10,143 nt of DNA from Sulfuricella sp. (GTDB lineage: Bacteria; Pseudomonadota; Gammaproteobacteria; Burkholderiales; Sulfuricellaceae), in NCBI GenBank assembly GCA_030691435.1, contig JAUYEK010000404.1, positions 1-10,143 of the forward strand. The letters run 5' to 3'. Shown here piece after piece: positions 1-9,201 of this stretch. Each line of letters starts with the position of its first letter. Position 1 is the stretch's first letter. The notes beneath the pieces were generated by a model. The model searched no databases and had not been told where the DNA came from. It was given only the letters and a program-made list of their open reading frames with translations. The translations under genes and the position numbers were made by a program.

Positions 1-784
1 CCAGCAGCCGACCGGTTTTCTGGCATTCGCAGTGGTAGGGGTCGCCTTTGTCCAGCGTGTAGCGCGGTACGCCGTGGAAGCTCATGACGAGCTTGTCGGG
101 GCGGCCATTCTGCATCCAGTCGTCGCGCACGCTTTGCGCCAATGCCGCGATGTAGCCGGGGTGGTCGTGAAAGCTCCTGACGGTGCGGATTTCCGGTATG
201 TTGCGCATCTTGCGCAAGGCGTCGAACACCGCGTCCATGGCTGAAGCCGTGGAGCTGGCGGCATACTGCGGGTAGAGCGGGAGAATCAGGATGCGCCCGC
301 AGTTCTGCTGCTTGAGCTTTTCCAGCGCCGACGCAACCGAAGGATTGCCGTAGCGCATGGCGAATTCAAGTAGAACAACATTTTTCACTTTTGCCCCCTC
401 TCCCGCAGGCGGGAGAGGGTTGGGGAGAGGGCTTGTCCCGTGGGAGAGGGGCAGTGCAGACGGCGCATTCAAAGTTTCACCCAAATAACCCTTCAGCATC
501 CTGGTTTGCCGCTGGGTGTGAACCAGCAGCGGAGAACCTTCCTTAGTCCATATCTTGGCGTATTTTTCCGCCGACTTCTTCGGCCGGGTGTTGAGGATGA
601 TGCCGTTCAGAATCAGCCACCACAGCGCACGGGGAATTTCCACCACGCGCGGGTCGCTGAGGAATTCCCTGAGATAAGGCTTCACCGCCGCGGCAGTTGG
701 CGCTTCCGGCGTGCCGAGGTTGATCAGGAGGATGCCGGTTTTGGTGGCAGTACCGTGGCGGTAGGGCGGTTCGGGATGGTACAT
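1..784 (-). CDS. hemH: Ferrochelatase (3' end outside window), carrying an in-frame repeat insertion
   Basis: Ferrochelatase inserts Fe2+ into protoporphyrin IX, the last step of protoheme synthesis. 261 N-terminal residues are in the window; the gene continues past the left edge. Visible family signatures are [12 protein letters not shown] (18-29), SPLL (84-87), FAMRYGNPS (141-149), the [13 protein letters not shown] block and [18 protein letters not shown], whose His237 matches the metal-inserting histidine of the family. The chosen ATG at 784 has AGGA 8 nt upstream (793-796). Between the conserved GYLGE and [11 protein letters not shown] segments there is an unexpected stretch of about 20-25 residues containing [13 protein letters not shown]. 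It is encoded by a GC-rich palindromic repeat (about 390-454) and keeps the frame open. The gene lies downstream of hrcA and the HicB-like ORF in the same direction, but is separated from them by a REP cluster that may terminate or process the transcript. The family assignment is firm; whether the enlarged enzyme is active is unknown. Confidence 0.93.
390..454. repeat. GC-rich palindromic repeat inserted in frame in hemH
   Basis: A perfect 11-bp stem lies at 396-406 and 409-419 (CCCTCTCCCGC / GCGGGAGAGGG, two unpaired bases). The nonamer GGGAGAGGG recurs three times, at 411-419, 423-431 and 442-450. Similar CCCTCTCCC...GGGAGAGGG units are common dispersed repeats in proteobacterial genomes. 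Read on the minus strand it has no stop and encodes [13 protein letters not shown] within ferrochelatase. The exact insertion limits are estimated from where ferrochelatase homology seems to stop and resume. Confidence 0.85.
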
Positions 785-3193: not shown

Positions 3194-4852
3194 ATGCTCC
3201 TGACCCTCAACATCCGTGATTTCGTCATCGTCGATCGCCTCGAGCTGGAATTTCAGCCCGGCTTCACCGTGCTTACCGGCGAAACCGGGGCAGGCAAATC
3301 CATCCTGATCGACGCCCTGTCGCTGGCATTGGGCGAACGTGCCGATGCCGGCGTGGTGCGCGCAGGCGCGGAACGCGCCGAGATCGAGGCCGAATTCGAT
3401 ACCCGCACCCTGCCCCAGCTTGAGTCCTGGCTGGACGAGCACGAGCTCGGCGGCGATCCCGGCGCGTGCCTGATGCGCCGCGTGGTGGATGCCGGAGGCC
3501 GCTCGCGCGCTTTCATCAACGGCCGCTCCGCCACCTTGCAGCAATTGCGCGAAACCGGCGAATTCCTGGTCGACATTCACGGCCAGCACGCCCACCAATC
3601 CCTGCTCAAGGCGGCTGCCCAGCGCGAGCTGCTCGATGCCTACGCCGGCCTGGGGCGTCCGGCCAGGGAAACGGCGGCAGCCTGGAAGGAATGGCAGGCG
3701 TTGAAGAAGGCGCGGCTGGAGCGGGAAAAGAATGCCGCCGCCTACGCCGAGGAGCTGGAACGCCTGGAATGGCAGGTGAAAGAGCTGGCGACGCTGAAAT
3801 TTTCCGGCCCGGAATGGGAAGAATTGCAGGCCGAACACGGCCGGCTGACCCACGCTGCCAGTCTGATGGAGGGTGCGCAGTTCGGCCTGGAAGTCCTGTC
3901 GGAGAATGACATGGCTTGCCTGGCGCAGGTCAACGGCGTGATTGCGCGCCTCAACAACCTGGTCGAACACGACGCCGGACTGAAGGAGGTGCTGGACTTG
4001 CTGGAACCGGCCGAGGTGCAACTGCGCGAAGCCGCCTACAGCCTGCGCCATTACTTGCAGCGCCTCGATCTCGACCCGGAGCGGCTCGCCCAGTGCGAGC
4101 AACGGCTGGGGGAGGTTCACGATGCCGCGCGCAAATGCCGTGTCGGCCCGGATCAACTGCCCGAACTACTGGCCGAGAAGATCGTTCGCCTGGACGAGCT
4201 GCGCGGCTTCGACAGCGGCAATGATGGGGTTCAGCGCGAACAGACGGCTCAGGCGCAATATCTCGAACTGGCCGGCAAGTTGAGCGCAGCCAGGAAAGAA
4301 GCGGCACGGGAGCTGGGTGGGAAGGTCAGCGTCGCGATGCAGTCCCTCGCCATGGCGGGCGGGCGCTTCGAAATTGCGCTGACCGAATTTGAAGGCAGTG
4401 CGCACGGCCTCGAAGAAATCGAGTTCCAGGTCAGCGCCCACGCCAGCCTGCCGCCCAAACCCCTGGCCAAGGTGGCCTCCGGCGGCGAACTGTCGCGCAT
4501 CAGCCTGGCTATCCAGGTTATCACCAGCAAGGTATCGCTGGTGCCTACCCTGATCTTCGACGAAGTGGACGTGGGCATCGGCGGCGGCGTGGCGGAAATC
4601 GTCGGCCAGTTGCTCAAGCAGCTCGGCACGGAGCGCCAGGTGCTGTGCGTCACCCACCTGCCCCAGGTGGCGTCGCAGGGCGACCATCATTGGCAAGTCA
4701 GTAAGTCCAGCCAAGGCGGCGGCGTGGCGAGCCGCATCCAGGTGCTGGAGCGGGATGCGCGCATCGAGGAAGTGGCACGCATGCTGGGCGGTGTCGAAGT
4801 CACCGAAACTACCCGCAAGCACGCGGCGGAGATGTTGGGGTTTAGCATGTAG
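3194..4852 (+). CDS. recN: DNA repair protein RecN (SMC-like ATPase)
   Basis: RecN is a cytoplasmic SMC-family ATPase acting in recombinational repair of double-strand breaks, holding DNA segments together. The 552-residue product matches the E. coli length (about 553). Walker A GETGAGKS is at 29-36, the ABC signature SGGELSR at 429-435, Walker B with catalytic acid in IFDEVD (D456, E457), and the switch histidine at H488 in CVTHLPQVAS. The middle (about 150-370) is rich in Glu, Leu, Arg and Ala as expected for the coiled coil. AAGGAA at 3179-3184 lies 9 nt before the ATG. The C-terminus AAEMLGFSM ends at a TAG that belongs to the GTAG head of the REP flanking the downstream transposase, so the last residue or residues and the stop are probably element-derived. 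In many bacteria recN is SOS-controlled; no convincing LexA box was seen here. Confidence 0.97.
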   Translation: MLLTLNIRDFVIVDRLELEFQPGFTVLTGETGAGKSILIDALSLALGERADAGVVRAGAERAEIEAEFDTRTLPQLESWLDEHELGGDPGACLMRRVVDAGGRSRAFINGRSATLQQLRETGEFLVDIHGQHAHQSLLKAAAQRELLDAYAGLGRPARETAAAWKEWQALKKARLEREKNAAAYAEELERLEWQVKELATLKFSGPEWEELQAEHGRLTHAASLMEGAQFGLEVLSENDMACLAQVNGVIARLNNLVEHDAGLKEVLDLLEPAEVQLREAAYSLRHYLQRLDLDPERLAQCEQRLGEVHDAARKCRVGPDQLPELLAEKIVRLDELRGFDSGNDGVQREQTAQAQYLELAGKLSAARKEAARELGGKVSVAMQSLAMAGGRFEIALTEFEGSAHGLEEIEFQVSAHASLPPKPLAKVASGGELSRISLAIQVITSKVSLVPTLIFDEVDVGIGGGVAEIVGQLLKQLGTERQVLCVTHLPQVASQGDHHWQVSKSSQGGGVASRIQVLERDARIEEVARMLGGVEVTETTRKHAAEMLGFSM

Positions 4853-4880
4853 GCTGGGGTGAGCCCGCGAACCCCAGCAA
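4849..4880 (+). repeat. Left REP flanking the RAYT transposase
   Basis: The element starts with the diagnostic GTAG at 4849-4852, then an 8-bp perfect stem GCTGGGGT (4853-4860) / ACCCCAGC, with a short loop. It is nearly identical (about 30 of 32 bases) to the reverse complement of the element at 5433-5464. It overlaps the recN stop codon (TAG 4850-4852). Confidence 0.92.
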
Positions 4881-4897
4881 CAACAATCGAACCCAAC

Positions 4898-5431
4898 ATG
4901 AGAAGCTACCTACGCGCATTCATCCGGGGCGGGACATTCTTCTTCACCGTCAACCTGGCTGACAGATCGAAAACGCTACTCACCGATCATGTCGGCGAGC
5001 TACGCGAAACCATCCGAAAAGTTCGCGACCGGCACCCCTTTCATATCGACGCCATCGTCATTCTCCCCGATCACCTCCATGCCATTTGGACATTGCCACC
5101 GGGAGATACGGATTACCCTACGCGCTGGGCGTTGATCAAAGCCGGGTTTTCACGAAACCTGCCCAAGGTCGAGCGCATCAGCGCGAGCCGGATAGGGAAA
5201 GGCGAGCGGGGTATCTGGCAAAGGCGCTATTGGGAGCACCAGGTTCGTGACGAGGCCGATTACGAGCGGCATGTGGACTACATCCATTACAACCCGGTCA
5301 AACATGGACATGCGCAAGCGCCGCTTGACTGGCCCTATTCGTCACTGCACCGGTTCGTTCGGGAGGGTTCTATCCCGCCGCATTGGGGGGCAAATTATGC
5401 CGTACCGGAAGTGGCGGTATGGGGAGAGTGA
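4898..5431 (+). CDS. REP-associated tyrosine transposase (RAYT, Y1 HUH family)
   Basis: RAYTs are domesticated relatives of IS200/IS605 Y1 transposases that cut and join single-stranded REP DNA and are thought to spread REP elements. The 177-residue product carries GGTFFFTVNL near the N-terminus, the HUH metal motif in LPDHLHAIW (H59, H61), WQRRYWEH (107-114), and the HVDYIHYNPVKHG block. Y128 in this block aligns with the tyrosine I recall as catalytic (Y115) in E. coli TnpA-REP. The ATG at 4898 fits the family N-terminus (MRSYLRAFIRGG); an in-frame GTG at 4859 lies inside the left REP and would add 13 unlikely residues. All key residues are present, so it is probably active. It sits between near-perfect inverted REPs with no other cargo, in the recN-fur gap where the family backbone normally has nothing. 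Confidence 0.94.
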   Translation: MRSYLRAFIRGGTFFFTVNLADRSKTLLTDHVGELRETIRKVRDRHPFHIDAIVILPDHLHAIWTLPPGDTDYPTRWALIKAGFSRNLPKVERISASRIGKGERGIWQRRYWEHQVRDEADYERHVDYIHYNPVKHGHAQAPLDWPYSSLHRFVREGSIPPHWGANYAVPEVAVWGE

Positions 5432-5432
5432 A

Positions 5433-5464
5433 TTGCTGGGGTTCGCAGGGTCACCCCAGCCTAC
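5433..5464 (-). repeat. Right REP flanking the RAYT transposase
   Basis: Read on the minus strand it begins GTAG (5464-5461) followed by GCTGGGGTGA and ends AACCCCAGCAA, with the same 8-bp stem as the left copy and about two substitutions in the loop. It begins one base after the transposase stop codon. The two copies are inverted around the gene, as is usual for RAYT loci. Confidence 0.92.
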
Positions 5465-8312: not shown

Positions 8313-8350
8313 TTCTCACAACGTAGCGAAGGTAATACTTATTGCATGTG

Positions 8351-8400
8351 TTGCGATGTTCTATACAACAATGTATGCTTAAAATCCATACAAGGAGTAT
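8351..8400 (+). promoter_or_regulatory. Promoter/operator of the tacA-tacT operon
   Basis: TTGCGA (8351-8356), a 17-bp spacer and TATGCT (8374-8379) form a plausible promoter. Over it lie ATACA (8363-8367) and its inverted partner TGTAT (8372-8376), and a further pair ATAC (8388-8391) / GTAT (8397-8400) around the ribosome site AAGGAG (8392-8397). Such short inverted half-sites are what a ribbon-helix-helix antitoxin would bind for autorepression. Confidence 0.55.
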
Positions 8401-8404
8401 ATCC

Positions 8405-8692
8405 ATGCCGCATGCACAAACCAGAGAAGCGGTTTCCGTTTCCATCAACATCCGCGCCAAAGCTCGGCAGCGCGATCTAATCGACCAGGCCGCAGATCGT
8501 TTGGGTCGCAGTCGGTCTGATTTTATGCTTGAGGCCGCCTGTCGCGAGGCGGAAGATGTGCTGCTCGACCAGGCATTCTTCACGGTCGATGAAGGCGCCT
8601 TTGCTAAATTTCAGGCGCTGCTCGATCACCCATTGCCACCGACTGACAAGCTACGCCGGTTGCTCAAGACGAAAGCGCCCTGGGAGAAATGA
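8405..8692 (+). CDS. tacA: DUF1778 (TacA-type) ribbon-helix-helix antitoxin
   Basis: The antitoxin neutralises the partner acetyltransferase and represses its own operon. The 95-residue protein has an N-terminal ribbon-helix-helix: the beta strand EAVSVSINIRAK (8-19) followed by two helices with QRDLIDQAADRLGRSRSDFMLEAA (22-45), a hallmark of DUF1778. The C-terminal part (about 50-95: VLLDQAFFTVDEGAFAKFQ, LLDHPLPPTDKLRRLL) is the toxin-binding tail with the Phe- and Pro-rich pattern of TacA. AAGGAG lies 7 nt before the ATG. Its stop overlaps the tacT start (ATGA, 8689-8692), so the two are translationally coupled. The gene symbol follows the Salmonella family name; direct orthology was not tested. 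Confidence 0.93.
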   Translation: MPHAQTREAVSVSINIRAKARQRDLIDQAADRLGRSRSDFMLEAACREAEDVLLDQAFFTVDEGAFAKFQALLDHPLPPTDKLRRLLKTKAPWEK

Positions 8693-9201
8693 CCACGCTG
8701 GATTTCGCGCCACCCGCGCCGATTACGGCGGATCAAGAGCTGGCAAATTTCGACAGCGGCGAATTGTCCCTGAACGAATGGCTCAAAAAGCGCGCGTTCA
8801 AGAACCATGCGTCTGGTGCTTCGCGCTGCTTCGTGTTGTGTGCCGGTGGGGTCGTCATTGCTTACTACAGCCTGTCGGCCGGTGCGATCAGCCATGAGGC
8901 GGCGCCCAGGGTGATGCGGAGAAATATGCCCGATCCGTTGCCAGTTCTGCTGCTCGGTCGGCTTGCAGTCGACAAACGCTACCACAATCAGGGAATTGGG
9001 CAGGCATTGCTGCGCGATGCAATGCTTCGGGCAGTCAACGTCGCCGGTGATGCCGGCGTATTCGCCATATTGGTTCATGCTCTTTCTGACCAAGCCAAGC
9101 AGTTCTATCTTTCACGCGGCTTCGTGGAATCGCCTTTGCAGCCGATGACTCTGCTCATGACGATAGAAACAGTTCGATCAATTCTGGCCGAACCTGATTG
9201 A
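8689..9201 (+). CDS. tacT: GNAT-family toxin (TacT-type, acetylates aminoacyl-tRNA)
   Basis: TacT-family toxins use acetyl-CoA to acetylate the amino group of charged tRNA and block translation. The 170 residues match the family length. The conserved start FDSGELSLNEWLKKRA (21-36), ASRCFVL, YYSLSAGAI, and LLLGRLAVDKRYHNQGIG (87-104) are present. The acetyl-CoA pyrophosphate loop is Q101-G-I-G-Q-A, and the catalytic tyrosine is Y140 in KQFYLSRGF, the same number as in Salmonella TacT. All key residues are intact, so the toxin is predicted active. Which tRNA it prefers cannot be read from the sequence. It overlaps the antitoxin by 4 bp and is followed immediately by a PIN-toxin relic on the other strand. 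Confidence 0.94.
   Translation: MTTLDFAPPAPITADQELANFDSGELSLNEWLKKRAFKNHASGASRCFVLCAGGVVIAYYSLSAGAISHEAAPRVMRRNMPDPLPVLLLGRLAVDKRYHNQGIGQALLRDAMLRAVNVAGDAGVFAILVHALSDQAKQFYLSRGFVESPLQPMTLLMTIETVRSILAEPD

Follow-up and report, generated by a model that had tools for sequence, protein, structure and literature searches.

The feature seen in the ferrochelatase gene (hemH) of the window, the whole 10,143-nucleotide stretch of Sulfuricella DNA analysed here, is best explained, with a probability of about 0.87, as a dispersed palindromic element of about 64 nt, short, non-autonomous and of triplex type, that inserted in frame. The gene occupies positions 2–784 of the minus strand as an open reading frame of 261 codons (784 to 2), its C-terminal part having been lost at the contig edge. 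The ORF is matched in two stretches by Pfam Ferrochelatase PF00762 (2e-73), and again in two stretches by NCBIfam TIGR00109 (2.4e-55). A conserved helix end, GYLGE (476–490, minus strand), precedes the insert, and a conserved strand, EFAMRYG (347–367, minus strand), follows directly after it. The total insert comprises minus-strand bases 368–451; the loop of 55 residues compares with 27 in the typical protein, a net gain of about 28 residues.

Two insertions can be distinguished within these bases. A whole copy of the dispersed element, the second to insert, covers 368–431 of the minus strand, matches positions 1–64 of R1, a covariance model built from 11 copies, with 62.1 bits, and is read in frame A. 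The first hairpin of the element is a perfect 11-bp inverted repeat with a 2-nt loop (396–419, no strand assigned), the arms being CCCTCTCCCGC at 396–406 and GCGGGAGAGGG at 409–419. A second GGGAGAGGG, on the plus strand at 423–431, is the outer arm of the element and corresponds to the "third strand" of a triplex-type motif as laid out in Table 1 of PMC4666352. Beyond it, at 432–451 of the minus strand, lies CCCCTCTCCCACGGGACAAG, a relic of an older element that was recognised by codon comparison with loci L002–L007 and L013 and that contains the third GGGAGAGGG. The window thus has three copies of this motif because a whole element adjoins the relic of an older one, and the codon alignments indicate that the second element inserted beside or into that relic. 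The earlier note on this DNA had reported the perfect stem, three copies of the motif and an open hemH frame with conserved HemH blocks on both sides, all of which hold; the motif lies at 411–419, 423–431 and 442–450. It had placed the insert at 390–454, a span that is too short, and had credited it with 20–25 added residues, an underestimate; it missed both the older relic and the breadth of the phenomenon.

The repeated unit has the form CCCTCTCCCCAACCCTCTCCC-loop-GGGAGAGGGGGCAAACGTGAAGGGCGCTTGTTTTGAT. Aligned copies start with CCCTCTCC and finish with TTTTGAT, limits that were drawn by the analyst from conservation. Copies in the window's own genome (G000) share CCCTCTCCCCAACCCTCTCCC, a short loop and GGGAGAGGG, followed in many by GGCAAACGTGAAGGGCGCTTGTTTTGAT; some consist of the hairpin without this 3′ half. 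Searches with R1 at E-values up to 0.01 return at least 132 matches in the own genome and at least 67, 82 and 85 in G004, G010 and G007, counts that are lower bounds, with 150 candidate places scored per genome. The own genome has 39 matches to the simple pattern CCCTCTCCCN2-7GGGAGAGGG versus 0 for a reversed control pattern; with a wider gap of 0–20 the figures are 57 and 6. The core pattern is found 4–80 times in each of 11 other genomes of the genus (control 0), in nine of ten genomes of the family's two other genera and in 3 of 19 genomes from other families of the order, and the reversed-pattern control is 0 across all 41 genomes. This is a dispersed palindromic repeat family of the genus.

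By its layout the element would be classed as triplex-type, its core matching the "intrastrand triplex motif": in the window copy a hairpin (396–404 and 411–419) is accompanied by a third strand with matching purine sequence (423–431). A strong RNA structure in the window copy was also considered and is unsupported. The fold has a z-score of −1.63 and 14 of 200 shuffles fold equally well; since the copy folds only mildly better than shuffled sequence, the evidence for the element is its repetition and not its fold energy. A long-loop variant, which has an additional inner hairpin of roughly 40–50 nt, occurs at G000 C80:331-445, C449:50-165 and C231:2662-2768, at G007 C8:196666-196784 and in the hemH insert of L010; murF of G007 carries the variant in frame and so, judged by eye, does hemH of G013. 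Four adjoining element matches (L082, G007:C17:20821-21110) lie between genes that resemble secD and secF by eye. Contigs C8, C15, C77, C128, C228, C255, C259 and C449 of G000 end about 65 bases or less from copies of the element; the repeat is thus a probable cause of breaks in this assembly.

The earlier note had proposed alignment with relatives as a check, and the relatives bear it out. Twelve genomes of the genus were searched and 11 gave a hemH gene, G006 giving a repeat match only; ten of the 11 genes have an in-frame insert at this site, and a sister gene (G005) with 95.5% identity to a filled one is empty. The site is empty in seven of eight genes from genus g2, the eighth (G020) having a short repeat-like insert, and it is filled in both genes from genus g3, which may or may not share the ancestral insertion (tree support 41%). 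The frame is kept in all 13 filled or short hemH alleles of the family. Among 80 named hemH loci, 62 have measurable loops, of which 58 are 26–28 residues long, one is 23 and three are longer (55, 39 and 33); the first two of these belong to G009 and G020, genes already included above. The loci excluded are 13 with no ORF by the rule used (including L122, the filled G015 gene) and five with no loop.

The inserts appear to have been both gained and lost. In a tree calculated with the loop left out, the empty G005 gene is sister to the filled G009 gene with 100% support and lies within the filled clade; the insert was thus most likely lost in G005, and the hemH loop has probably been emptied again in this one species. 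The same tree places the short G020 gene inside the otherwise empty genus g2, so that an independent fill of the site in this related genus is most likely. Loci L002, L003, L004, L005 and L007 have a common older insert whose reading frame and 3′ hairpin are different, and the window and L013 have a newer element beside the relic of that older insert. The insert of G007 (L009) is much decayed, its 5′ half being no longer repeat-like.

Values of dN/dS outside the loop are 0.07–0.17 in all ten pairs tested, filled and empty, and indicate that hemH is under purifying selection. A second intact hemH, which by the earlier note would have marked this copy as a dead duplicate, was found neither in the own genome (79% complete) nor in the relatives searched. 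An AlphaFold2 model of the G009 HemH protein, calculated with 40 aligned sequences, has a mean pLDDT of 87.3, with 255 of 386 residues at 90 or above. The insert lies between the helix at 82–106 and the strand at 134–143, and pLDDT falls below 50 at 111–117 and 119–131. The model suggests a disordered insert on an intact ferrochelatase fold, low pLDDT being no proof of disorder. Selection and predicted fold are indirect signs that the host protein may still be expressed and functional. The proposal that a repeat colonised a core heme gene without destroying it gains support from the relatives, the other copies and the predicted fold, and the predicted disorder fits the suggestion of a tolerated surface loop.

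Copies elsewhere in the genome, and a count of those inside ORFs, had likewise been proposed as a check; such copies are present, and hemH is one host among many. All 112 listed strong copies (at least 55 bits; 48 in G000, 16 in G004, 39 in G010 and nine in G007) were examined for spanning ORFs, and 24 of them, about a fifth, are in frame inside conserved genes. In 21 of these, family homology extends on both sides of the copy or across it; three with homology on one side only were counted as well (G000 nuoG-like and rnb, G010 addB). Of the 21, the hosts in G000 are hemH, murE, murF, ileS, uvrC, cobB (two copies, forming an inverted pair), metG, pabC and a glycosyltransferase-9 gene of the heptosyltransferase family; those in G004 are ileS and hypF; those in G010 are smc, murF, cheA, hrpA (two) and hemH; and those in G007 are metG, murF and hrpA. 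The remaining 88 are intergenic or lack a demonstrated location in a conserved gene. The family search took ORFs of at least 190 residues, with at least 45 before and at least 30 after the copy, and so missed short or terminal cases. The count leaves aside ORFs with no family match, copies that precede or follow the conserved part of a gene (rnfD-like, rsmB, a PTS EIIA gene and a phosphorylase) and a possible apgM case (L173). Beyond the 112, weaker or other matches are placed in frame by HMM in trpC and at two hrpA sites (G000) and in murC (G008).

Comparison of host genes reveals that particular sites are filled in some species and empty in others. Site 1 of murF is filled in two of the three genomes compared, G010 and G007, but is empty in G000, and site 2 shows the reverse. 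Site 1 of hrpA has the same distribution as murF site 1; at hrpA site 2, G000 has the element, G010 has none and G007 has a different palindromic repeat. These patterns argue that the same loops have been filled repeatedly, and that more than one repeat family has filled them. A few native codons have been lost at filled sites, and no clear target-site duplication was found when they were compared with empty orthologues. The other repeat, around SPLTPLFQRG in G007 hrpA (L264), is a CCCCTTTTTCAAAGGGGG-type palindrome that lies in frame at the loop holding the element in G000.

Among alignable copies, frame A (...GEGANVKGACFDL) is open in 100 of 101, and the other five frames are open in 25 to 85. 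The 24 in-gene copies are read in frame A in 18 cases, antisense in four and in another sense frame in two. Counted by distinct gene-sites, with frames and sites judged by the analyst and not fully independent, frame A is used at 14 of 20 versus 27% expected from stop content (binomial 8e-5), and antisense frames at 4 of 20 versus 57% expected (8e-4). A second scan, of ORFs initially omitted, added one in-frame case, the antisense copy in the glycosyltransferase-9 gene (G000 C26), and with it the sense bias becomes slightly weaker (14 of 19 becoming 14 of 20). What is surprising is how few copies are antisense, the remaining sense frames being mostly closed. We read this shortage as possible selection for a flexible, Pro/Gly-rich peptide, a reading and no proof. 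General selection on frame A was considered and dropped. A first simulation had seemed to favour it, with 100 of 101 copies open versus a mean of 89.8 and none of 500 runs as high, but frame anti2 was equally deviant in the opposite direction (57 versus a mean of 74.7), a sign of shared ancestry among the copies, and private changes revealed no selection on frame A (two stop-making changes, 1.5 expected).

Might the insert have been domesticated, so that a hairpin or triplex in hemH DNA or mRNA, or the peptide loop itself, has a role such as tuning heme synthesis? Across considerable divergence the site is filled in ten of 11 hemH genes of the genus, and elsewhere it seems to have been filled independently, which would accord with such a role. 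Yet the frame, length and sequence of the insert differ among species, G005 lacks it altogether, it is modelled as disordered, its RNA folding is unexceptional, and many unrelated genes show the same insertion; domestication is accordingly unlikely. An origin by slippage is a good deal less probable still. Here a low-complexity Pro/Gly loop would have expanded by slippage and would merely look like the repeat, as the Pro/Gly-rich composition and variable length of the loops, together with the 5′ half of the G007 insert, might suggest. Slippage does not account for matches at all 64 model positions, including a non-repetitive 3′ half (62.1 bits for the window, 57.6 for G010), nor for a site that is empty in relatives.

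An error of assembly or binning, in which short reads collapsed on a repeat and placed it in hemH, is the most improbable of these explanations. The window's genome is indeed fragmented (453 contigs), with several contigs ending close to repeat copies, but nine other genomes of the genus, including the two-contig G004, have in-frame inserts at this site, with sequences in part shared and in part diverged, and none of the 13 alleles has lost the frame.

Under the favoured explanation, insertions would land in many places, and those that disrupt genes would be removed by selection. Surviving copies would sit in loops that tolerate changes in length, and would mostly be translated in a single sense frame, one almost always free of stops, which supplies a Pro/Gly-rich, flexible peptide. 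The hemH loop would then be a tolerated, disordered surface loop with no new function. A bolder proposal is tentative, and we consider it possible but rather doubtful: a protein-compatible mobile element, with its stop-free Pro/Gly-rich sense frame, would colonise core genes as a set of ready-made linkers, and repeated gain, nesting and loss would continually generate variation in protein length across the family.

Movement of the copies is assumed to depend on a trans-acting transposase or on copying during repair. The window itself contains, at 4849–5464, a Y1/RAYT-type transposase ORF (4859–5431) between 94% complementary inverted arms starting GTAGGCTGGGGTGAGC. This ORF was rejected as the mover, being flanked by GTAG-type inverted repeats and not by copies of the element; the GTAG-type system and the triplex-type element coexist in the window. 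Among 23 Y1 match loci in five genomes, which include pieces of one gene and loci cut by contig ends, none has the element on both sides, two have a copy on one side within the approximately 1.5 kb fetched, and four have GTAG repeats on both sides. G004, with 16 strong copies listed, has no Y1 match.

Several known systems resemble parts of this picture. Rickettsia palindromic elements (RPEs; Ogata et al. 2000, 2002, as cited in PMC3733652 and PMC10969869), about 150 bp long according to PMC10969869, are likewise short palindromes found in frame in many unrelated housekeeping genes, where they add segments to apparently functional proteins; the present family shares this behaviour, being dispersed in many copies and in frame in several unrelated conserved genes. 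As far as published descriptions allow them to be set apart, RPEs are longer than the approximately 64-nt CCCTCTCCC element and their hosts are obligate intracellular bacteria; the RPE-4 and RPE-6 types are classed as CGTC repeats in PMC3733652. The intrastrand triplex motif (TM or TMECO) is described by Holder et al. (2015, PMC4666352) as occurring in many copies in more than 260 genomes. Its layout (Table 1 of that paper) is shared by the core here, CCCTCTCCC-loop-GGGAGAGGG-linker-GGGAGAGGG, but here the core is translated and makes up the 5′ half of a longer element. Holder et al. treat the motif as intergenic in E. coli and link it to rearrangement, and the main text makes no mention of "in-frame", "intragenic" or "Sulfuricella".

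Palindromic repeats within core genes are also known from GTAG/CGTC REPs, which Di Nocera et al. (2013, PMC3733652) report inside uvrA, dnaE2, tRNA synthetases and helicases of several free-living bacteria including Thauera, recB of two Xanthomonas being hit at about the same site. In contrast to those REPs, which have a GTAG or CGTC tag at one end of the palindrome and flank RAYT genes, the copies here begin CCCTCTCC and end TTTTGAT and have neither tag within their modelled limits; no RAYT-type partner was found among the 23 Y1 loci, none of which has copies on both sides. An identical hairpin core is present in the CCCTCTCCCXX(X)GGGAGAGGG repeats of Enterobacter sp. 638 (PMC2869309), which reportedly number one hundred copies, often at the 3′ ends of genes, and are not reported there as coding inserts. 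The small mobile sequences of enterobacteria that carry ORFs and occur inside genes (reportedly units of 103–168 bp; PMC2759123) belong to other families.

The triplex motif that the core matches is already known, as are in-frame palindromes in Rickettsia and as intragenic REPs. What is new is a non-REP, triplex-type family widely in frame in the Sulfuricella-related group, and alongside it the frame bias, the repeated hits on the same loops, the nesting and the loss. No prior publication of this case was found in a literature search, which is weak evidence of novelty, subscription papers being mostly outside its reach. In-frame palindromes are best known from Rickettsia, and the usual explanation for them is small populations and relaxed selection. 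The present host is presumably free-living. A large case near culturable sulfur oxidisers makes insert-tolerant loops, peptide neutrality and the mover testable, and segments of the PLPNPLPxxGEG type in annotated proteins deserve a look before they are dismissed as misannotation.

Two further features of the window may be recorded. Repeats of the GTAGGTTGGGTTAG type lie in inverted orientation at 811–955, just upstream of hemH. At 8342–9201 an ORF for a TacA1-like antitoxin (PF08681) overlaps one for a GNAT acetyltransferase, an arrangement that looks like a toxin-antitoxin pair of the TacA-TacT type.
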